33,458 bases of DNA, taken from assembly GCA_029940695.1 (NCBI GenBank), contig JAPYUP010000018.1, forward strand, positions 1 to 33,458, written 5' to 3'. Numbering within the stretch: the stretch's first letter is position 1; every line of letters starts with the position of its first letter. This DNA comes from Candidatus Thalassarchaeaceae archaeon. GTDB taxonomy: Archaea; Thermoplasmatota; Poseidoniia; Poseidoniales; Thalassarchaeaceae. Below are positions 2-28,898 of the stretch, one piece after another. A program made the position numbers and the translations under genes. The notes beneath the pieces were generated by a model. It worked only from the letters and a program-made list of their open reading frames with translations, was not told where the DNA came from and ran no database searches.

Positions 2-3000
2 CCTGACCCACTCGACCCTAACCCGGAACCGATACCGAGGGACTGCGACCCCAAGATCATCGCGTTCTACGACGCCGTATTCACCGACGAGGAACAGGAT
101 CCCTCGACTTCCTACGACTCTGGGACCCATGGATCCCACGTTGCCGGCATCGCCGCAGGCACCGGCGGTGGCCAGACCGACCCAGAGACCGGCCTGCGCT
201 ACGTCGGAGCCGCTCCCGGAGCCTACCTGATCAACATCCTCGCCTGCTGCGACGGCGATATCGAGGACGTCATACAGGGCGCCCAGTGGGCCATAGACAA
301 CAGGGACAAGTACGGCATAGACATCTTAACCTCGTCCCTGGGCGAGCAGCAGTTCGAGATTCACGTCGACAACGACGGCAACTCCGCATGGAGCCGACAG
401 ATGGACATGGTTGTCGAGGCAGGCATCACGACCACCCTATCTGCCGGCAACGAGATCGGCGGCATCACTTTCGTTGGCTGCAACACCATAGACAGCCCCG
501 GCGATGCGCGCCTACCAATCACGGTGGCGAGCTTGGACAAGGACCTCAGCCTCGCCATCTACAGCAGTCGCGGGTACACCTCTGACCTCCGCGTCAAGCC
601 AGACGTCGCCACCATCGGATCTGCCATCATGGCACCCGACGCCGCGACACAGGACGGCTACATCAGCAAGTCCGGCACCAGCATGGCAACTCCTCTGATG
701 GCGGGCATTGCCGCCCTCATGATACAGGCCAACCCAGACCTCACTCCTTCCGAGTTGAAGGTCATAGTGTCTGACCAGTCGATCGAGCGAGAAGTCTCCT
801 TGTTCGGGGACGCGGGTCTCAATGACTGTAGCCTGCTGGAGACGAGGCCAGACAACGAGTTCGGATATGGTCAGGCCGACCCCGTCGCCTTCGTTGAGGC
901 CGCAGGCAGCATTGACCGTTCTCTAAATGTCTCTATGGACATCCGCTCGATGGACGAGGTGCTCAACCAGAGCTACCTCTCGGGTACCGCCTCGGGTGTG
1001 GCGCCCGGACAAGGCGAGGTGCAGGTCCGCGTCGGTGGTAGCCAGTGGAAGGCAACGGAAGACACCTCTCCGTTAGGTGACTGGGCCCAGTGGGAGATTA
1101 AGCTGGACCCGCACAACGAGTCTGGAAACTCAACCATCTACGCCCGCCTGATTGTCGATGACGACCACATTTCTCCAGTGGATGCCCGTAGAGTCATCCT
1201 TCTAGATCTGCTAGCACCGGTGGAAGCAACCGATTCGAGCAGCTCGAAAATTCTAATTTTCGGACTATCGCTAATCTTACTACTCCTGTTAGTATACGTT
1301 CTTTACAACAGAGAGCAACTTGTTGAGGAGTGGTTCGACGGACAGAGCCTGACTGAGAACAAGCTCAGAAGGATGGTTTCACTTTGCGTCCTTTACTTCG
1401 CTCAAGGCCTCCCATGGGGATTCGTAACAGTCGCCTTCGCATCATATCTCTCGGACAACGGATTTACCCCTCAAGAGCTTGGTACTCTGTTCGCTACCGT
1501 CGCCTTGCCTTGGACCTTCAAGTGGATTTGGGGCCCCGTTATCGACACGTTGAGCTTACCGCAATTCGGCACCCGTAGGCTATGGATCCTATTCGCCCAG
1601 TTTGGGATGGCCGTATCAATAGGGACCCTTCTACTTGTCCCGGATCTGACGAATCAGATCGACCTAGTGATTAAACTAATGTTCGTGCACAATATCTTCG
1701 CTTCCCTACAGGACGTCAGCACCGACGCCCTCGCGGTGGACGTTCTTCGGGATGACGAAGTCTCGAAGGCAAACGGGTACATGTTCGCGTCCAAGCGAGG
1801 CGGGATGATAGTCGGTGGTGCGGTCCTTGGTGGATTCGCCACGACGATAGGCATCAAGGGCATGCTATCTATCCAACTGCCAATGCTGCTGCTGATAATG
1901 GTGCTACCATTGTTCCTCTACGAAAAGCCAGGCACACGGCTGTTCCCATGGTCAAGACTATCCGATCAAGAATTACTAGATTCTGATTTCACGGATTCTT
2001 CCCGGGAGTCTGAATTTGAAGTGGATGAAAGGCTTTACTGGGAGGAACCAGAAGAGTCCAGATGGTGGGCGGCTCAGGCAGTGGGTAAATCAACATTTGA
2101 CCAAAGAATCTCACTAGCAGCCCTGCTGACTATCGTATCCCTAACCATCTTTGTCGCCGGGCTGATATTTGCGATATTTTCAGTTGACCTGACTGTTCCG
2201 CTATACGCGAAAGCAAAGAGGATTGCATTCTATGGGATCGTTCTAGCCATTATCACTACCTTGGTCGCTAGAGCGGTCCCAATACCTAAGGTCATTAATC
2301 CATTCTTGATATTGCCCCAAGGTTCCCGCAGGACTCTTGCTCAGACAAGTTTCAATCTCACCAAGGCATTCCACCTGAGATCCTCTTTCATGCTGATCTT
2401 CCTGTGCCTCCTGGCCGAACTGTATCTTTTCATAGACCCAATCGTGATTGACATATTCATCAATCGGGCAGAGTGGGAGCAGGAGGATTACAACGTCATC
2501 GTTGGCGGTATCGTAATCCTCGCAATCATGATCGGCCAGATTGCAGGGGGCATGCTGGGAGAAAAGTACGGGGTCAAAAAGGTGGCAATAATCGGCTTCA
2601 CATGCCTTGCCTTGTGCAATGCCATGCTGGCGGTTTTGGAGCCATTCTGGACCAACACGGTAGTAATGACGGCCTATTTGATTATCCGAGGCCTAGTCAA
2701 CGGAGTGGCTTGGATATGCGTGATTGCGGTCTGCATGAAGATGACCTGGAGCAAGGTCGGGGGGACACAATTCACCGCCTATATGTCCATGTTCAACCTC
2801 TCGGGCGTAATGGCATACACATTCACTGGTAGGATGCTGGAGATATTCGATAACAATTACAGCACCACAATTTATGTGGGGGCAGTACTCACCATGTTCA
2901 CAGTCTTCTTCTTGGTCTTCATCGACCCAGAAGAGTGCAACAGAGTACTCGAGGAGAAGGATGCCTTGGACGGAATCCTTCTGGACGATTTGGGCGAGTC

Positions 3001-3046
3001 AGGATGGTGGGAAAAGGGAGGTGACGATCCTGTCACAACTGCGTGA
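2..3046 (+). CDS. Subtilisin-like serine protease fused to AmpG/PAT-type MFS transporter (5' partial)
   Basis: The reading frame is open from the window edge, so the N-terminus (signal peptide, catalytic Asp) is missing; 1014 residues are visible. The protease part shows the catalytic His in GTHGSHVAG (visible residue about 43), the oxyanion Asn in SAGNE (about 150) and the catalytic Ser in SGTSMATP (about 227). An Ig-like linker follows, then one hydrophobic helix at about 415-436. After a short segment with KLRR comes a polytopic transporter whose LYFAQGLPWG start, TDALAVDVL motif and charged mid-protein loop resemble the AmpG/PAT branch of the MFS. The topology is consistent: protease outside, helix crosses inward, and the MFS N-terminus lies in the cytoplasm. 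No stop interrupts the join. The transporter half is clearly AT-richer than the protease half. Inferred role: extracellular proteolysis tied to uptake. The substrate is unknown. Confidence 0.85.
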   Translation, partial: PDPLDPNPEPIPRDCDPKIIAFYDAVFTDEEQDPSTSYDSGTHGSHVAGIAAGTGGGQTDPETGLRYVGAAPGAYLINILACCDGDIEDVIQGAQWAIDNRDKYGIDILTSSLGEQQFEIHVDNDGNSAWSRQMDMVVEAGITTTLSAGNEIGGITFVGCNTIDSPGDARLPITVASLDKDLSLAIYSSRGYTSDLRVKPDVATIGSAIMAPDAATQDGYISKSGTSMATPLMAGIAALMIQANPDLTPSELKVIVSDQSIEREVSLFGDAGLNDCSLLETRPDNEFGYGQADPVAFVEAAGSIDRSLNVSMDIRSMDEVLNQSYLSGTASGVAPGQGEVQVRVGGSQWKATEDTSPLGDWAQWEIKLDPHNESGNSTIYARLIVDDDHISPVDARRVILLDLLAPVEATDSSSSKILIFGLSLILLLLLVYVLYNREQLVEEWFDGQSLTENKLRRMVSLCVLYFAQGLPWGFVTVAFASYLSDNGFTPQELGTLFATVALPWTFKWIWGPVIDTLSLPQFGTRRLWILFAQFGMAVSIGTLLLVPDLTNQIDLVIKLMFVHNIFASLQDVSTDALAVDVLRDDEVSKANGYMFASKRGGMIVGGAVLGGFATTIGIKGMLSIQLPMLLLIMVLPLFLYEKPGTRLFPWSRLSDQELLDSDFTDSSRESEFEVDERLYWEEPEESRWWAAQAVGKSTFDQRISLAALLTIVSLTIFVAGLIFAIFSVDLTVPLYAKAKRIAFYGIVLAIITTLVARAVPIPKVINPFLILPQGSRRTLAQTSFNLTKAFHLRSSFMLIFLCLLAELYLFIDPIVIDIFINRAEWEQEDYNVIVGGIVILAIMIGQIAGGMLGEKYGVKKVAIIGFTCLALCNAMLAVLEPFWTNTVVMTAYLIIRGLVNGVAWICVIAVCMKMTWSKVGGTQFTAYMSMFNLSGVMAYTFTGRMLEIFDNNYSTTIYVGAVLTMFTVFFLVFIDPEECNRVLEEKDALDGILLDDLGESGWWEKGGDDPVTTA

Positions 3047-3296
3047 TATCCTCGATTCCGCCGAGACCGACTTCCTGGTCTTCACCCAGACCGTGTGCCC
3101 CTACTGCACACTCGCCTTCAGGACCCTCGATGCCAAGGGTCTGAGTTTCACAGATGTTAACCTCGATCACTACGATGGGCTTAGGCAGGCTGTAGTAAGA
3201 GAAACCGGACATCGGACCGTCCCAATAGTCTTTGACATGAGAGATGAGGATCCGGTGTTCGTCGGTGGCTCGGACAACCTGCTCGAGTACCTCTAG
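3021..3296 (+). CDS. Glutaredoxin-like thiol-disulfide oxidoreductase
   Basis: A 91-residue protein with the glutaredoxin active site CPYC at about residues 26-29 and a TVP cis-Pro loop (HRTVPIVF) at the position that binds glutathione or a partner thiol in this family. The length is typical for a single-domain glutaredoxin. The start is uncertain. GTG at 3021 is the first conventional codon in frame, but it lies inside the GGGAGGTGA ribosome-binding-like string. A CTG at 3030 would be better spaced from it. The gene overlaps the end of the protease-transporter by about 26 nt, so the two are probably co-translated. Its stop is interleaved with the stop of the convergent lipoprotein gene in a CTAG. 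Confidence 0.85.
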   Translation: MTILSQLRDILDSAETDFLVFTQTVCPYCTLAFRTLDAKGLSFTDVNLDHYDGLRQAVVRETGHRTVPIVFDMRDEDPVFVGGSDNLLEYL

Positions 3297-11998: not shown

Positions 11999-12664
11999 TC
12001 AGTGGCACGCCGCACCGAACTTCTTCAGCCGCCAGTAGTTGTAGGGCCACGGCGTTAGGAAACCGACGACGAGCATCGGAGGGATGACCCACCAAGTCAT
12101 GCCGATGCCGCCGGTCAGGAACCAGTCGGTCAGCTCCATCGCGATTTCCATTGCCAGCATCGAGATGAAGCTCATACCGAATGCAGTCGAAAGCGCGTTG
12201 GAGAAATCCATCTGCCCCCGCATCAGCAGCACTGTTTCAAGCGTGACCGAGGTCGCGAGTCCGTTGATGAGCGGCAGCACCACTAGGAACCAGAAAAGAG
12301 TCGTGCCGACCGCAACTTCCAGTGGCCACTGCGCCCACTGATAGTAGCCCAGCGTCGCGAACTCGCCGATGGAACACCCGATAAGGCACCACTTCGTGTT
12401 GTTAGCCGACTGTCGCCACACCGAACTATCTCCCCAGTTGAATTCCATGTCTATGGTCCCGCCATCCGCAGAGTAGCCAACTCCCGTGATGGCATCTACG
12501 AGAGACAGCCTGCTCACTCCATCGTGGGTCACTATCGCTTGCCCCGTCTCGTGGGAGACTTCAGCGCCCAGAACTCCTTCAAGCGATTCCAGCGCTCCTT
12601 TCACCCTCCCCGAACATCCCGTACAGGTCATCCCGCTGACAGAGATGGCTGCTGTCTCGGACAC
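11999..12664 (-). CDS. HMA metal-binding domain fused to DUF4396 membrane protein
   Basis: 221 residues from GTG at 12664. The N-terminal 65 residues are a heavy-metal-associated domain with the GMTCTGC motif (Cys14, Cys17) that binds Cu(I) or similar soft metals in metallochaperones. The remainder has four membrane helices. Its WCLIGCSIGE start, MAMEIAMELTDWF middle and TPWPYNYWRLKKFGAACH end match my recollection of DUF4396. The extra Cys and His residues in the membrane part and the final Cys-His could be metal ligands. The frame is open to 13087, but that part is antisense to ileS and is rejected. A perfect 18-bp palindrome sits 5-22 nt before the start. Likely role, inferred: copper or other metal handling at the membrane. 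Confidence 0.85.
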   Translation of the reverse strand: MSETAAISVSGMTCTGCSGRVKGALESLEGVLGAEVSHETGQAIVTHDGVSRLSLVDAITGVGYSADGGTIDMEFNWGDSSVWRQSANNTKWCLIGCSIGEFATLGYYQWAQWPLEVAVGTTLFWFLVVLPLINGLATSVTLETVLLMRGQMDFSNALSTAFGMSFISMLAMEIAMELTDWFLTGGIGMTWWVIPPMLVVGFLTPWPYNYWRLKKFGAACH

Positions 12665-12668
12665 GCTC

Positions 12669-12686
12669 TGACCGTTTAGACGGTCA
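12669..12686. promoter_or_regulatory. 18-bp palindrome between ileS and HMA-DUF4396 gene
   Basis: TGACCGTTTAGACGGTCA has two exact 7-bp arms around a TTAG centre. It occupies the 55-bp divergent gap, ending 33 nt before the ileS ATG and starting 5 nt before the HMA gene GTG. It is a candidate operator for a dimeric regulator, perhaps metal-responsive given the neighbour. It could also act as a leader hairpin. Confidence 0.5.
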
Positions 12687-12719
12687 CTATTGAAACCTGC
12701 TAAACGAGAAATTCGCCCT

Positions 12720-15700
12720 ATGGGCGACCGAGGCATATTCAATACAGCGCCGTTGGTCGTCGGCTCGATGGGCGTACCCAATTCACCTGGCGACCTCGAC
12801 CCTGTCGCCCTAGAGAATGCCTTGATGGAGACCTGGAACGAAGAGGGGACCTTTGAGGCGACCATCGAGTCGCGCCGAGACCACGCCAGTCCCTTCACCT
12901 TCCTAGAGGGGCCGCCCACGGCAAACGGCCGACCAGGCATCCACCACGTCATCTCGAGACTGTTCAAAGACATGGTTTGTCGGTGGAAGACAATGGAGGG
13001 GCACGTCGTTGAGCGAAAGGGAGGATGGGACACACACGGTCTTCCTGTAGAGATAGAGGTGCAGAAGCAGCTCGACCTGATGTCCAATGAGGAGATCGAG
13101 GCCTACGGCATGGAGGCCTTCAACGAGAGGTGCAAGGAAAGCGTCTGGGCCTACGAGGAGGCGTGGCGCGAGATGACCGAGCGCATGGGCTTCTGGATTG
13201 ACATGGACGACCCCTACGTCACCCTCCACGACGAGTACATCGAATCCACATGGTGGTCACTCAAACGGATGTTCGACAAGGGACTGCTGTTCCGCGGTCA
13301 CAAGGTCCTGCCCTACTGCCCTCAGACTGGAACGAGTTACTCTAGCCACGAGGTCGCGCTGGGCTACAAGGAGGTTGCAGAACCAGCTGTCTACATCAAG
13401 TTCAAACTCATCGACGATGATGCTTCAGTTCTCGCTTGGACGACCACACCATGGACTCTGCCGGGCAACGTGGGTCTCGCCGTCGGCCCCGATGTTACCT
13501 ACTGCCGGATTCGCATCGCCGAGCCGCCTTCCGACTCTTGGGAAGGGCGTGGTGGTGCTGAGGTCAGAGAGGAGTTGATTCTCGCCAAGGACCTGCTCAC
13601 AGACGTTCTGCGCCACCAGATCGAGGTCATCGACGAGTTTCCTGGCTCGCAACTCATCGGCAAGGCCTATCGCCCCCTGTTCCCCGATGCGGTTGAGCGA
13701 GGCGACTCCGAGAACGCCTGGACGATTGTCGCAGCGGACTTCGTGACCACCACTGACGGGACCGGCGTGGTCCATACCGCTGTGATGTACGGCGAGGAGG
13801 ACTACAACCTCGGAATGAAGGTTGGCTTCCCGGCTCAGCACACCGTCGGCATAGACGGCGCCTTCGTCGCTGGGACCCATCACTTACTCGACGGTCGCTA
13901 CGTCAAGGACTGTGACTCCGACATTATCGACCACCTTGCTGATGAGGGCCTGCTGTACCGCGAGCACACCTACACTCACGACTATCCGCACTGCTGGCGC
14001 ACCGGCCACCCACTGCTGTACTACGCGATGGACAGCTGGTTTGTCCGCATGACCGCTGTGCGCGATGAGATAATGCAGTACAACTCCGAGGTCGAATGGG
14101 CCCCCGAGTGGACTGGTACCAAGCGCATGGGGGAGTGGCTCTCGAACATCAAAGACTGGGCGATTAGCCGCGAGCGCTACTGGGGCACCCCTATCCCTGT
14201 ATGGATTTGCCCAGACTGCGGTCACGAGCACTGCATCGGCAGCATCGAAGAGATGAGCTCGATGAAGACCGATGGCTCGCCCGTACCTCCTGAGTTGCAC
14301 CGGCCTTACGTCGACGACGTCAGGCTGCACTGTCCCTCGAGTGGCTGCTCGGGCGAGATGGTGCGTGAGCCCTACGTCATGGACTGCTGGTTTGACTCCG
14401 GCTGCGCCTTCTTCGCCCAGTGGCACTACCCGTTCGAGAACGAGGACAGGTTCGATGGCTCGTTCCCGGTCGACTACATCTGCGAAGCCGTCGACCAGAC
14501 GCGAGGCTGGTTCTACTCTCTTCTCGCTCTCTCGACAGCGCTGTTTGACAGTACCTGCTACCGCCGCTGTCTCTCGCTAGGCCATATCTTGGACAAGGAA
14601 GGCAAGAAGATGAGCAAGTCGAAGGGCAACGCCGTTGATCCATGGGATCACTTCAACAAAGAGGGTGCCGATTCCATCCGCTGGTACATGACCACGCAGA
14701 GCGGGCCGTGGTCCCCCACCAACTTCGACCCCAATGGGGTTCGAGAGTCCTACGCCAAGATGTTCCTCACATTGTGGAACGTCTACCGCTTCCATGCCGA
14801 CTACGCTGTACTGGATAGCTTCGATGCCGATGACGAGTCTGGCTACGTCGCCATCTCGGAGCGCAGCCCGCTCGACCGATGGGTGTTGTCGAAGGCGAGC
14901 GAAATAGCCGACGCTTACCACGAGAACTTCGAGTCTTGGAACTTCCACAAGGCCGGGCGCGGGCTCGAGGGCTTCGTCGTCAACGACCTCTCCAACTGGT
15001 ACGTCCGGCGCTCGCGCAGACGCCTGTGGGACGAGGCAGACAGCACCGACAAGAGAGCATGCCAGCATACGCTGCACGAGGTGCTGCTAATCGTGTGCCG
15101 CCTGATGGCGCCTGTTGCCCCATTCATACCGGATGTCATCCATCGCGGACTAGTCGGTTCCTCGGTTCACCTCGCCGACTGGCCTGTCGGCTCGTCGCTG
15201 GTCGAGCGCAACCTGCCACCACGTGACCACGCGCTCGAGCAGGAGATGTCCTTGGTCCGCTCGCTGGCCGAGGCCGGCCGCCGCATCCGAGTCAAGGCGG
15301 ACCGCAGACAACGGCTTCCCTGCCGCTCAGGATGGATTGTTGGGGCCCCCAATCTCTCGGAGTTCCACGATATCCTCGCCGATGAGCTCAACGTCGAAAC
15401 GCTGACCACAGAGGATGACCTAGACTCCTTCCAAAAGGTTGTGCTAGCCCCCAATCGCAAGGCCCTCGGTGCCAAGTGCCGCGCTGACCTACCTGCCGTG
15501 CTGGCGCAACTAGACCTCGCTGACCCAGAGCCTTTGTTGCTCGAGATAGAGGCCGGAATCGCCGCTTTAGCCGGGTACGAAATCACATTGGATGACATCG
15601 AGGTGCGACGCGTCGAGAAGGATGGATTTGCGGCTCACACTCTCTCGCACGATGCCGGTGATGTCTCGCTCGTGCTTGACATGGTTCTCGATTCCGACCT

Positions 15701-15950
15701 GCTCTCCAAGGGGCTCGCCCGGGACCTCATCCGGCGCGTACAGGCCAAGCGCAAGCAGCTCGACCTAGAAGTTGAAGCGACCATACAACTCTCGGTCTGG
15801 ATAGACGGGATGGAACTCGCCGGCGACGATTGGGAGCACGTGAAGTCAGAGACGCGAGCAGGAAGAGCTTCGCTCAATGAGGGCAAGTCCCCAACTGACA
15901 CGGAAACCTTCGAAATCGACCGAACGAATGTGACGTTCTATCTCTCGTAG
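12720..15950 (+). CDS. ileS: Isoleucyl-tRNA synthetase
   Basis: 1076 residues, typical for the archaeal/eukaryotic-type enzyme. It charges tRNA-Ile with isoleucine and has an editing (CP1) domain. The class I motifs are the HIGH-equivalent GIHH in PTANGRPGIHHVISR (residues 73-76) and KMSKS at about 630-634 (GKKMSKSKGNAV). CPDCGHEHC in the insert looks like a zinc ribbon. The end of the frame resembles the C-terminal anticodon-binding and junction region of IleRS. The ATG at 12720 is chosen; a TTG at 12690 is in frame but extends into the promoter. There is no clear ribosome-binding site, so the mRNA may be leaderless. The last 13 nt overlap the convergent sulfotransferase gene. Confidence 0.97.
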   Translation: MGDRGIFNTAPLVVGSMGVPNSPGDLDPVALENALMETWNEEGTFEATIESRRDHASPFTFLEGPPTANGRPGIHHVISRLFKDMVCRWKTMEGHVVERKGGWDTHGLPVEIEVQKQLDLMSNEEIEAYGMEAFNERCKESVWAYEEAWREMTERMGFWIDMDDPYVTLHDEYIESTWWSLKRMFDKGLLFRGHKVLPYCPQTGTSYSSHEVALGYKEVAEPAVYIKFKLIDDDASVLAWTTTPWTLPGNVGLAVGPDVTYCRIRIAEPPSDSWEGRGGAEVREELILAKDLLTDVLRHQIEVIDEFPGSQLIGKAYRPLFPDAVERGDSENAWTIVAADFVTTTDGTGVVHTAVMYGEEDYNLGMKVGFPAQHTVGIDGAFVAGTHHLLDGRYVKDCDSDIIDHLADEGLLYREHTYTHDYPHCWRTGHPLLYYAMDSWFVRMTAVRDEIMQYNSEVEWAPEWTGTKRMGEWLSNIKDWAISRERYWGTPIPVWICPDCGHEHCIGSIEEMSSMKTDGSPVPPELHRPYVDDVRLHCPSSGCSGEMVREPYVMDCWFDSGCAFFAQWHYPFENEDRFDGSFPVDYICEAVDQTRGWFYSLLALSTALFDSTCYRRCLSLGHILDKEGKKMSKSKGNAVDPWDHFNKEGADSIRWYMTTQSGPWSPTNFDPNGVRESYAKMFLTLWNVYRFHADYAVLDSFDADDESGYVAISERSPLDRWVLSKASEIADAYHENFESWNFHKAGRGLEGFVVNDLSNWYVRRSRRRLWDEADSTDKRACQHTLHEVLLIVCRLMAPVAPFIPDVIHRGLVGSSVHLADWPVGSSLVERNLPPRDHALEQEMSLVRSLAEAGRRIRVKADRRQRLPCRSGWIVGAPNLSEFHDILADELNVETLTTEDDLDSFQKVVLAPNRKALGAKCRADLPAVLAQLDLADPEPLLLEIEAGIAALAGYEITLDDIEVRRVEKDGFAAHTLSHDAGDVSLVLDMVLDSDLLSKGLARDLIRRVQAKRKQLDLEVEATIQLSVWIDGMELAGDDWEHVKSETRAGRASLNEGKSPTDTETFEIDRTNVTFYLS

Positions 15951-16612
15951 CCGAAGGTGTCGAAGTCCTTCTTGAAGCTCTTGTAGATGAGTTCCTTGAC
16001 CTCATTAGTCAGCGGCTCATTAGTCCCCATCCCTCGTGACTTGTTGAGTATCTTAAGTTCATGGAACCCGTAGCGCTGGCGTATCTCCTCATAATCGCTG
16101 GGGAGGTCCTCGATCTTGCCCACATGATCCATCTTTGCTCCACGAGAGAATATGATGCTGTGCTGCGTCTTGAAGTGCCTGTCGCACAAGAAGTTTGGAA
16201 GCCGGGTGACCTTCCTGACAAAGACCTCGAATGAATCATCATTTCGAAGGTATCCGAACAAGTAGTTAGAGTAAAGGAATAGTGACTCATCTTCCTTGTT
16301 GAACTTGTTTTGGTAGCTAGATACTAGCCTCTCATAGGGATTCCTGACGTATGAGAAAGAGAAGTAGGTGCGTTTATTCCTAGGAATCCCCTTGTGCGAA
16401 AACTCCTGGGTGTGGTAATGGATGGAGCGATCCCGAGGGAATTCCCCGGCCATCGATGTCTTGATCGAGGAACAAGCTGACTTGGCCACGCTTGCGAAAA
16501 CAACCTCCTTGTCGTCGAGGACGAAGAAGTCTGACGAGTCTAGGTTGCCATACAACAGCACGTGCCCCAAATCCCTGGTGAACTGGTAGAGATTCCTAAG
16601 GGTCAGCCTCAT
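15938..16612 (-). CDS. Carbohydrate-type sulfotransferase (Sulfotransfer_2-like)
   Basis: 224 residues. The 5'-phosphosulfate-binding loop is recognisable in FASVAKSACSSIKTSM (residues about 39-54) and the 3'-phosphate-binding segment in FSYVRNPYERLVSSYQNKF. These motifs define PAPS-dependent sulfotransferases acting on glycans. The usual acceptor is a cell-surface sugar, here unknown. The gene is AT-richer than its surroundings and uses more Lys/Asn codons, which hints at recent acquisition. It starts 10 nt after the stop of the propeller-like lipoprotein gene, behind GAGGGATGA, so the two are probably one transcript. Its 3' end overlaps ileS. Confidence 0.85.
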   Translation of the reverse strand: MRLTLRNLYQFTRDLGHVLLYGNLDSSDFFVLDDKEVVFASVAKSACSSIKTSMAGEFPRDRSIHYHTQEFSHKGIPRNKRTYFSFSYVRNPYERLVSSYQNKFNKEDESLFLYSNYLFGYLRNDDSFEVFVRKVTRLPNFLCDRHFKTQHSIIFSRGAKMDHVGKIEDLPSDYEEIRQRYGFHELKILNKSRGMGTNEPLTNEVKELIYKSFKKDFDTFGYER

Positions 16613-25421: not shown

Positions 25422-28400
25422 ATGCGCTCCAAGGGGCTCGTCGGATTCCTCGTCGCTCTGCTGCTTCTCCCCTTGGCCTCAGTCCTGTTGATTGAAGTCG
25501 GCCAAGGCGAGTCTTTTCTTGGCTCCGCGCGGGTCGCCGAAGCCTCAGTCAAGACGACGAGCGTCGTAGACGTGCCCGAATGGCGTATCAACGACAACTG
25601 GATGTACGATGGGTACCTAGACGTCGCCGACTTCGTCGCTTCGTCCGGCGTCAGCTCCACTGCCGAGACGCTGGAGGGCTCGCTGGAGGTCACGGTCATC
25701 GACATGTACCTAGTGGATATCGAAAACGACTCGACCCTAGTCTACGAGGTCGAGTCGATTGGGGAGTACGAGTCCGACGGCCCTGTCAGCATCGATGGCA
25801 CCAACGGCTGCCTCTACGTCGACATGGACACCACGGAGATCATTCGCGCCTCGGACCTCGCCACGCACACCCAGGAGGCCACCATCGACGTCTACTTCGA
25901 TCCAGTGTTCTTCGGAAGCTGCTCCTCTTGGCTGAGGCAGGAAATAGGCTTGCTCACGGTTCTGAACACCTATGCCCCTCCCCTCGAGGACTACGACTTC
26001 CCAATCAGCGTGGGCGAGTCATGGGGGATGGACTACGAGCAGGACATAGAGTTCAGCGGCACCAGCGACTACGTCCCCATCCCGAACGACACCAGCGACT
26101 CGAACACCACCAGCTGGGAGGTGGTCAGTCAGGGGAGCTCAGGGGTCTCCTACTCGGGCTGCTACCAGTCCTACAACATCACGAACTACAACAGCGATGG
26201 TGACGAAGTCGGCTACAATTGGTACTGCCCGGCGATCAGGGGGGACATCAAGAGCTCATACCTGCAGAGCTTCGGATTCACTGCAGTGCACGAACTGGTG
26301 TCCTACCAGCAGACACAGAGGAACACCGAGGTCTCAATCGATATCGAGTATCCCCTAGCGCCGGTTGACGTCGAGATCTCGGCGTGGATTAATGTCTCAA
26401 TCCAGGGCCAGCCGGTCAGCAACCAGGCCCTCCAGTTCAGGTACGAGGCGGAACAGATCGTGCACAACATCAACACCTCATCGAACGGATCCTACCACCT
26501 GACGTTCGACACCGGGCATTCCTCTGACGACTCCGTTGGAATCGGTGAGCTCGGCAGCCACGGCCTACTGGCTTGGATTCAAGACGACGATATCCTAGGA
26601 ACGCGGTCCCTGATCATCGATACCGACGTCCACGAGATTGACTTGGTCACCCGGTCAGAGGCGGTCACGGTGCAGCGCCATCGAGGCAACGGCACCCTTA
26701 CGCTCGATCCCAACGCCGGCTTCAATGCCATCATTGGGGACACGCTGACCTTCTCCGTACCAGTCCTCAATAGGGGGCTCATTTCTTCTCCCGCCTCCTC
26801 GCTGAGAATCAATGCGCCCGACGGCTCCGTGGTCAACGGCGACGTGCCCCCCCTAGCCAGTCTCGAGGAAGCCAGGGTCGAGATTAACTGGACCGTACCA
26901 GCATCGCAGTCCTTCGGTTACGTATACATCGATTTCGTTGCCGACCCCGAAGAGGAAATCAGCGAGGACGGAAACCGCTCGAACAACAACGGAGTCTTCG
27001 TGCTCTACGTCGGGGCCCTGCCGATGGCAAACCTCCTCGTGCTCTGGGAGACCCTCACTCTCGATGAAGTGTCCCTCGATGGCAGCGGTTCCCAAGACCC
27101 TGACGGGGGTACGCTGGAGTGCGAGTTCAGGGTCGAGCGGGCGAACGGCCAGATTGAGACGGCGCTGGAGGACGACTGCGTCTACGAATGGAGCTGGAAC
27201 GACGATGGCGAGTTCGCAGTCACGCTCGTGGTCTCGGACGGGGAGAACGACCACGCATCCACCTCCTCTTCTATCATAGTCCACAACCGACCGCCCGAGA
27301 TTATCTTGGGGGCGGACGAGGAGGGGGTCCAAGTGACCTCGCCCATCACCTTCAGAATCACCAACAGGAGCGACGCTGATACCCAGACCCCCTCCGCGCC
27401 GGTCGACATTCTGTGGGGCTCCGCTTGCAATGAGGGGCAGGTCGGCCTTGCGTGCACGGTAACGCCAATGGCCGAGGGGCAATACACGATTGAGGTCCTA
27501 GCTACCGATGATGACGGGGCAACCACTCAGGCCTCTCACACCGTTACCGTCAGCAACGCAGCTCCCCACGACCCCCAAGCAGAGGTATGGATGGGCCCGA
27601 ACAGGCTCGCTACTGACAGTCGCGGCGTTTACTTCGTGCAGGAGGGAGATTCCATAACCCTGTTGGGTCGGGCTGAAGACTCGAGCAACGACCTCGACTC
27701 CCTGCTTCACGTATGGAGGCCCGACGCGGAGAACCAGCCCGAACTCAACCACACTAGCTTCGGTATGACGAGCATCGCCAACCACAGCTACAACGCATCG
27801 GGCATGCAACTTGCAACCCTGCAGGTGTTCGACGACGACGGCGAGGGAACCGAGATGCTAATCGTTCCTATTCAAGTCGAGAACGTGCCCCCCTCCATCG
27901 CCCCCCTAGCCACGGTGCCTGAAGTCGAAGAGGACGAGCAGGTGGTGATTGACGTCGGAGTCACCGACACCGCGAACGACATGTCCAGCCTCGCTCAGTG
28001 CTTCGATTTACACCCTAACGACGATGCGGACTCCGACGGCGACTCGAGAAACGACTGCGATGTCTCTTCCCACCTCCTAGTGCACTCATGGCCTGACGCA
28101 TCCACTGCTCCTGACTTCATAGTCTTCCATGTGACTGACGACGACGGCGAGTCCGACTCGGTGGAAATTGCCATCGAGGTGATGAACGCCCCACCCACGG
28201 CAATGGCCTCTGCCAGCGTCGTAAACCCCACGGAGGGCGATAGTATCGTGCTTTCAGCCAATGGGACCGTGGACTCGGAGCTCGACCTCGAGAGCCTAGA
28301 GTTCCACTGGGACCTGGATGTCACAGTCGACTCGGACGGCGACGGTAACCCGGAGAACGATGTCGACATGCAGGGCCGATGGATCGAGTTCACCTACGAC

Positions 28401-28898
28401 TCCGGCGGCATGAAGCAGGTGAAGCTGACCGTGACCGACGATGACGGCGAGAGCCACTCCGTCACCATGGACATCGAGGTTGAGGAGGCCCCTTTCAGAT
28501 TGGGTGAGAGTATTCAGACGAACCTCCCATTACTCACCCTCATCATCATGGTGTTGGTGGGAATCGGCTACGCCATGCAGCGCTTACTCTCTATCGAGGA
28601 GGAATCCGGGGGGCTAACCTCGTCCAAGCCGCCGGTTGACGTTGATGCGGCCTTCGATCTCCCTGGGCCTGAGCCACTGCAGCAACCTGATGAGGCCATC
28701 GCGTCAGTCCCAGAACCTCCCAGCGAGCCAACTGCACAAGACATCCTTCCAGAGCTCGACGACGTGCTCGAGGAGCTTACCGGCCGCAGACCCGATCCCC
28801 CCAAGCCCGAGAGCGCGACCGAGGATCCGGTGAGCGAGCAGGGCCCGTTAAACGAGGCCCTAGACCAAGAGGACATCGAAGCACTCTTTGAGGAGTAG
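25422..28898 (+). CDS. Large surface protein with CARDB/PKD-like domains, C-terminal TM and cytoplasmic tail
   Basis: 1158 residues. A signal peptide (about 5-25) is followed by an N-terminal domain (about 50-320) opening with DVPEWRINDNWMY, akin to the lipoprotein at 3293-4243. A CARDB-like domain lies at about 430-535 (VPVLNRG, then EDGNRSNNNG). Four or five PKD-like repeats fill about 540-1010 (DGSGSQDPDGG, TDDDGE repeated). Two acidic loops of the DSDGDxxxxDxD type probably bind calcium. Sequons are frequent. A single helix at about 1028-1049 precedes a Pro/Glu-rich cytoplasmic tail of about 105 residues ending in LDQEDIEALFEE. It lies 48 nt after tbp and 14 nt before sepF. Role: probably a cell-envelope or adhesion protein; the tail could contact cytoplasmic machinery. 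Confidence 0.88.
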   Translation: MRSKGLVGFLVALLLLPLASVLLIEVGQGESFLGSARVAEASVKTTSVVDVPEWRINDNWMYDGYLDVADFVASSGVSSTAETLEGSLEVTVIDMYLVDIENDSTLVYEVESIGEYESDGPVSIDGTNGCLYVDMDTTEIIRASDLATHTQEATIDVYFDPVFFGSCSSWLRQEIGLLTVLNTYAPPLEDYDFPISVGESWGMDYEQDIEFSGTSDYVPIPNDTSDSNTTSWEVVSQGSSGVSYSGCYQSYNITNYNSDGDEVGYNWYCPAIRGDIKSSYLQSFGFTAVHELVSYQQTQRNTEVSIDIEYPLAPVDVEISAWINVSIQGQPVSNQALQFRYEAEQIVHNINTSSNGSYHLTFDTGHSSDDSVGIGELGSHGLLAWIQDDDILGTRSLIIDTDVHEIDLVTRSEAVTVQRHRGNGTLTLDPNAGFNAIIGDTLTFSVPVLNRGLISSPASSLRINAPDGSVVNGDVPPLASLEEARVEINWTVPASQSFGYVYIDFVADPEEEISEDGNRSNNNGVFVLYVGALPMANLLVLWETLTLDEVSLDGSGSQDPDGGTLECEFRVERANGQIETALEDDCVYEWSWNDDGEFAVTLVVSDGENDHASTSSSIIVHNRPPEIILGADEEGVQVTSPITFRITNRSDADTQTPSAPVDILWGSACNEGQVGLACTVTPMAEGQYTIEVLATDDDGATTQASHTVTVSNAAPHDPQAEVWMGPNRLATDSRGVYFVQEGDSITLLGRAEDSSNDLDSLLHVWRPDAENQPELNHTSFGMTSIANHSYNASGMQLATLQVFDDDGEGTEMLIVPIQVENVPPSIAPLATVPEVEEDEQVVIDVGVTDTANDMSSLAQCFDLHPNDDADSDGDSRNDCDVSSHLLVHSWPDASTAPDFIVFHVTDDDGESDSVEIAIEVMNAPPTAMASASVVNPTEGDSIVLSANGTVDSELDLESLEFHWDLDVTVDSDGDGNPENDVDMQGRWIEFTYDSGGMKQVKLTVTDDDGESHSVTMDIEVEEAPFRLGESIQTNLPLLTLIIMVLVGIGYAMQRLLSIEEESGGLTSSKPPVDVDAAFDLPGPEPLQQPDEAIASVPEPPSEPTAQDILPELDDVLEELTGRRPDPPKPESATEDPVSEQGPLNEALDQEDIEALFEE

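Follow-up and report, generated by a model that had tools for sequence, protein, structure and literature searches.

A subtilase-permease fusion with exchangeable extracellular heads and transport halves in Thalassarchaeaceae and related archaea

Introduction

The Dictyostelium proteins TagA, TagB and TagC contain a subtilisin-type serine protease, and the C39 peptidase of the peptidase-containing ABC transporters (PCATs) is cytosolic. In TagA/B/C, serine protease and transporter reside in one polypeptide (PMC4334915), and PCATs likewise have their peptidase fused to a transporter. In ACE2-B0AT1 and other intestinal complexes of a peptidase with an amino acid transporter, the peptidase is membrane-bound and sits beside the transporter of its products (cited in PMC8194517). 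For the transport half of the protein described here, the closest solved relative by both sequence and fold is AmpG (TIGR00901; PDB 8zbb/9j9z/8zgz/9c3f). For the S8 domain of the protein, the closest solved relative is PDB 3afg (4e-36), which we take to be the Tk-SP subtilisin of Thermococcus.

Marine Group II (MGII) archaea are abundant in the surface ocean, where they degrade protein. How they take up the degradation products is poorly known, hence the interest of a permease that bears its own enzyme. MGII papers list extracellular S8 and M28 peptidases and transporters separately, leaving a fusion unmentioned (PMC6864105, PMC6336850), and a survey of archaeal fusions, in the passages found, mentions Poseidoniales-specific clusters and transporters, the S8-MFS fusion not being among them. 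An earlier note on the DNA studied here stated that no protease-permease fusion of this kind was known to it, and this agrees with our search of the literature (subscription papers lying mostly outside it), which returned no MFS permease headed by S8 or M28 and no report of exchangeable heads at one locus, the S8-ABC proteins TagA/B/C being nearest.

Results

Protease and permease in one reading frame

The window, that is, the whole stretch of 33,458 nucleotides analysed, opens with a frame of 1014 codons without a stop that runs off its 5′ end (Table 1). The earlier note had described it as one uninterrupted frame for a protease, a single helix and an MFS transporter. Open it is, but the protein is truncated, since base 1 of the contig (C11; genome of 1.42 Mb in 44 contigs) is also that of the window; the contig edge cuts off the start codon and signal peptide, the propeptide-like region and the catalytic Asp. 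The remaining head matches Peptidase_S8 (PF00082) with 130 bits against a cut-off of 21.8 and is thus a subtilase. All three motifs that had been claimed for it could be located: His43 (nt 128–130, DSGTHGSHVAG), the oxyanion Asn150 (nt 449–451, LSAGNE) and Ser227 (nt 680–682, SGTSMATP). The single helix and the transporter behind it were likewise recovered, the latter matching Pfam MFS_1 from residue 461 (7.4e-24; 84.7 bits against a cut-off of 33.4), which makes it a member of the MFS, and containing STDALAVDVL at nt 1718–1747; weaker Pfam matches on the protein were to BT1 and Acatn. The 3′ end of the fusion gene is overlapped over 26 nt by the glutaredoxin-like gene, so the two are probably translationally coupled.

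Table 1. Features located in the window, with the basis of each assignment or a remark.
Feature	Position	Strand	Basis or remark
S8-MFS fusion gene	2..3046	+	5′ end lost at contig edge
Peptidase_S8 catalytic domain	86..871	+	Residues 29-290, Pfam 1.3e-37
Beta-sandwich (Ig/CBM-like) spacer, protease to membrane	908..1240	+	Strands in AF2 model of relative L065, pLDDT ~70-79
Single anchor transmembrane helix SSKILIFGLSLILLLLLVYVLY	about 1241..1306	+	Hydropathy
Charged linker, presumably cytoplasmic	1307..1369	+	Sequence; side of the membrane from topology
AmpG-like (PAT-type) MFS permease	about 1370..3043	+	Pfam, profile and fold comparison
Glutaredoxin-like gene (CPYC motif)	3021..3296	+	Pfam; GTG start at 3021
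Heavy-metal-associated domain followed by DUF4396	12002-13087	-	Uncommon-looking combination
Sulfotransferase-family protein	15941-16612	-	In a planktonic archaeon
1158-aa protein with CARDB, Ig-like and PKD domains	25422-28895	+	Likely a large surface protein

The fusion is a single protein throughout the family

The S8-MFS fusion is a genuine single protein. Wherever both halves lie on one contig, they form one frame in every Thalassarchaeaceae (Marine Group IIb) genome and class-level relative examined, and the in-frame join is found at more than 40 independent loci. It is present in two single-amplified genomes, AG-422-I22 (L078) and AG-422-I18 (L104), and extends to one further family of the class (L182, L183 and L190). 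Frames measure 1238–1321 aa, without stops, in the genus of the window, about 1240–1350 aa across the family and about 1230–1340 aa among the full-length relatives compared, which have the Asp motif. Two ways in which the fusion might have failed had been named beforehand, namely separate genes in related genomes and an assembly error near positions 1230–1370; one frame was found throughout, and the junction recurs in independent assemblies, which here stand in for reads.

Full-length members start with a signal-peptide-like segment, followed by a propeptide-like region, probably a true propeptide, and the S8 domain. Among 45 aligned S8-type (A-type) rows, two of them 5′-truncated (the window and L085, the latter without the S8 core), the catalytic Asp motif [AV][ILV][VL]DTG[VI] is present in all 43 that cover its region, and His, Asn and Ser are kept in 44 of the 44 that cover them. 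This conservation of the catalytic D/H/N/S motifs would suit a head that acts as a protease. In each half dN/dS lies at 0.03–0.25, which indicates purifying selection.

The transport half is AmpG-like

A profile of the MFS half aligns over its full length with AmpG structures (8zbb/9j9z, 1.9e-32) and then with SLC33A1, and for the AF2 model of the relative L065, whose best hits are MFS structures, Foldseek ranks AmpG first (1e-11). The scores against the curated AmpG families, however, stay far below their cut-offs (TIGR00901, 116.7 bits against 350; NF008238, 53.5 against 756). The half is therefore AmpG-like rather than AmpG, and the 'AmpG/PAT-type' assignment of the earlier note stands as a superfamily relation, not as AmpG proper. 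The context agrees in rejecting AmpG itself: murein-recycling genes were searched for at the locus and none was found, its neighbours being riboflavin genes, a GHMP kinase, a glutaredoxin-like gene and an H+-PPase. To our knowledge, archaea have no murein.

In most Thalassarchaeaceae copies the central loop of the MFS domain is extended by an insertion of about two helices. Related permeases also occur without a head: some Poseidoniaceae possess one (451 aa in L184) as their second copy, and Phycisphaerae have solo proteins of 439–460 aa. These planctomycete proteins (L116, L117 and L118) are close to the archaeal MFS half, with ~36% identity over the domain and at most 50% in the best tblastn segment, a likeness that suggests transfer between domains of life.

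The transport half has been replaced in place

Of the two halves of the fusion, S8 is by far the better conserved. Compared with a member of the same genus (L076), the window's protein is 86% identical in the S8 domain and 52% in the MFS domain, and compared with the class-level relatives L182, L183 and L190, the values are 67% and 36%. Grouping by genus is broadly seen in the S8 tree and not in the MFS tree, and the S8 data reject a tree that keeps the MFS clade g3+g1b together (p-AU 0.001). The sister genomes L073 and L066 show where the change sets in: their DNA is mostly 80–95% identical over the flanks and the protease, drops to 46–73% (about 65%) from approximately codon 600, just ahead of the anchor helix, to the stop codon, and is back at 78–90% directly past it. 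In three triplets, tests for exchange delimit a segment from codon 575–614 to the end of the gene, with 0 of 2000 permutations reaching the observed value; the breakpoints of the related genomes fall at the end of the beta-sandwich spacer. Fast evolution of the MFS half as the source of its divergence is rejected, since dS flips between pairs (L071/L073: head 2.4, MFS 0.32; L073/L066: head 0.50, MFS saturated). Given the drop in identity, the triplet segments, the reversal of dS and the conflict between trees, anchor plus MFS are an exchangeable cassette that has been replaced in place. The simplest mechanism would be homologous recombination within the conserved DNA of S8 and of the downstream region.

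At least five heads on one scaffold

A search with the MFS profile found a member in 209 of the 319 genomes of the order, plus genomes of another family in the class, and across the class the anchor-plus-MFS scaffold bears at least five different extracellular heads. Head A is the S8 domain of most Thalassarchaeaceae genera and of the class-level relatives (L182, L183, L190). Head C is a Peptidase_M28 aminopeptidase (Pfam 4e-19), a member of that family also by its zinc-ligand motifs HHD, YDDGTG, DYEE, NLD and KH, invariant in 8 rows. Head D is a plastocyanin-like cupredoxin (Pfam 8e-13) with all four type 1 ligands, His-Cys-His-Met (AHN, CEPH..GM), in 4 rows. Head B belongs to an unnamed, Cys-containing family, probably a beta-rich domain; a profile search of the PDB gave no relative, and with the AF2 model at pLDDT 53, the weak beta-sandwich/CBM-like Foldseek matches were not used. 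Head E, an unnamed domain bearing a lipobox, is that of Poseidoniaceae (f2), the other family of the order, and for heads E and B of this family a Pfam search returned no family above cut-off. Heads B to E match one another weakly, most simply through a common juxtamembrane helix and linker; the natural module boundary would lie directly ahead of the anchor helix. On a 76-row MFS tree, in which some long branches and the placement of Phycisphaerae are uncertain, at least 11 changes are required to fit the six states (five heads, or no head), against a minimum of 5, and well-supported branches largely force those that involve A and B.

Heads A, B and C, the last in genus g9 of Thalassarchaeaceae and genus g22 of Poseidoniaceae, occupy the same chromosomal locus. 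All three have the same downstream neighbours, including the H+-PPase and a conserved lipoprotein-like gene, and upstream riboflavin genes (so named by their sequence motifs rather than by a family search) and the GHMP kinase are common to A and B. The glutaredoxin-like gene is conserved downstream of A- and B-type fusions and has the opposite orientation at two M28-type loci (L120 and L123). Heads D and E, and head B of Poseidoniaceae, lie at other loci. How sharply a head can change is seen in genus g5, where an A-type and a B-type locus (L068 and L077) share 68–88% identity in their neighbours and 54% in their MFS halves, with heads that are unrelated.

Discussion

What could such a protein do? 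Our best reading is a permease at the cell surface that processes and imports, with head and transport halves exchangeable. A signal peptide would direct the head to the cell exterior, where one helix would anchor protease and beta-sandwich, and the AmpG-like permease, probably proton-driven, would import the product freed beside its mouth. A head outside and an MFS N-terminus inside are what signal peptide, anchor helix and the rules for MFS proteins predict, in support of the protease-outside topology of the earlier note. Its further suggestion, of cleavage outside the cell with import on the spot, is strengthened by the finding that the scaffold also bears M28, a peptidase unrelated to S8; two unrelated peptidases on one permease favour scavenging of peptides or amino acids. 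Processing and import is also favoured by the closest solved MFS relatives, the AmpG proteins being muropeptide importers, by the catalytic motifs kept in the S8 heads and by purifying selection on both halves. Import as the direction, an ion as the drive, a peptide-like substrate and capture of what the head releases would all follow from this reading.

Three observations weigh against this reading. Cupredoxin and heads B and E are not proteases; proteolysis is thus not the universal purpose of the scaffold, whose common function may differ from peptide uptake. A swap of the MFS half under a conserved protease is unexpected if the halves are tightly co-adapted, which counts against coupling. 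AmpG-like permeases also include carriers of siderophores (RhtX/FptX) and acetyl-CoA, which counts against peptide import. The AF2 model of a whole A-type protein (pLDDT 50) offers no usable arrangement of protease and transporter, as its S8 part did not form; an alignment of little depth and too little variation is the probable cause. On balance, protease-coupled import has, judged from sequence, about an even chance of being correct.

Transporter and anchor make up the constant part, the head that they bear (S8, M28, cupredoxin, B or E) varies by lineage, and exchange of the transport half in place by homologous recombination would allow specificities of digestion and uptake to be reassorted. 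We tentatively propose, at somewhat less than even confidence, that the fixed locus of these planktonic archaea may be an exchange site for composite surface importers, at which catalytic or binding heads and the permease half recombine in place, each independently, into new pairings of digestion and import that set the nutritional niche of a lineage.

Alternatively, cleavage and transport may be uncoupled, an independent MFS transporter whose main use is to tether the enzyme to the cell surface, so that its products escape loss to the dilute sea water. The same swap of the MFS half without the head would fit this, as would the unrelated kinds of head on one scaffold and an S8 domain that evolves much more slowly than the MFS domain within the genus. 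Yet a single helix suffices to anchor an enzyme, the MFS half is under purifying selection, and the persistence of the fusion in another family at only ~36% MFS identity indicates that a working transporter has been kept attached. We therefore regard a mere anchoring role as rather doubtful.

A processing-and-export system of the kind proposed for TagB/TagC, in which the MFS half exports a peptide or other molecule for trimming by the external protease, has its precedent in the known S8-transporter fusions (TagA/B/C), which are tied to the processing of secreted peptide precursors (PMC4334915). It appears improbable, the closest solved MFS relatives being importers and the locus, with the neighbours described above, holding no conserved precursor-peptide gene. 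Similarly improbable is that escape from viruses or predators using the protein as a receptor drives the exchange of heads and MFS halves, with nutrition secondary. Allele replacement in place between unchanged neighbours does resemble diversifying surface loci, but within the A-type protein the S8 domain is both the most exposed and the most conserved part, the swapped half remains under purifying selection, and a search for relatives on viral contigs, which addressed viral carriage of the fusion cassette, gave no hit. As for an assembly or binning artefact joining two genes, the window does begin at a contig edge and most of the genomes are metagenome bins, but the same in-frame join in dozens of independent assemblies, in single-cell genomes and across the whole family leads us to reject this two-gene reading as having practically no chance of being right.

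If processing and import are coupled, a single-chain enzyme-permease would explain how a cell in a dilute ocean retains its products, and it would link the range of peptidases directly to transport. Since nature offers one scaffold with several heads, this coupling can be put to the test, and the set of heads may hint at what archaeal AmpG-like permeases carry.

How, then, does the fusion compare with known systems? Each half alone has relatives that stop short of it: AmpG works without an extracellular enzyme, its family cut-off is far above the score of the fusion, and the murein-recycling genes that would suit it are not near the fusion locus; Tk-SP subtilisin has no transporter fused to it. 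PCATs differ by exporting and by their ABC transporter (PMC7018657). TagA/B/C combine the protease with an ABC exporter, where the fusion has an MFS permease, and they are eukaryotic, without alternative heads and tied to peptide secretion; ACE2-B0AT1 consists of two separate chains, with an SLC6 transporter, in animals. The closest precedents are accordingly the S8-ABC proteins TagA/B/C of Dictyostelium, for the union in one chain, and the ACE2-B0AT1 complex, for a peptidase held beside the transporter of its products.
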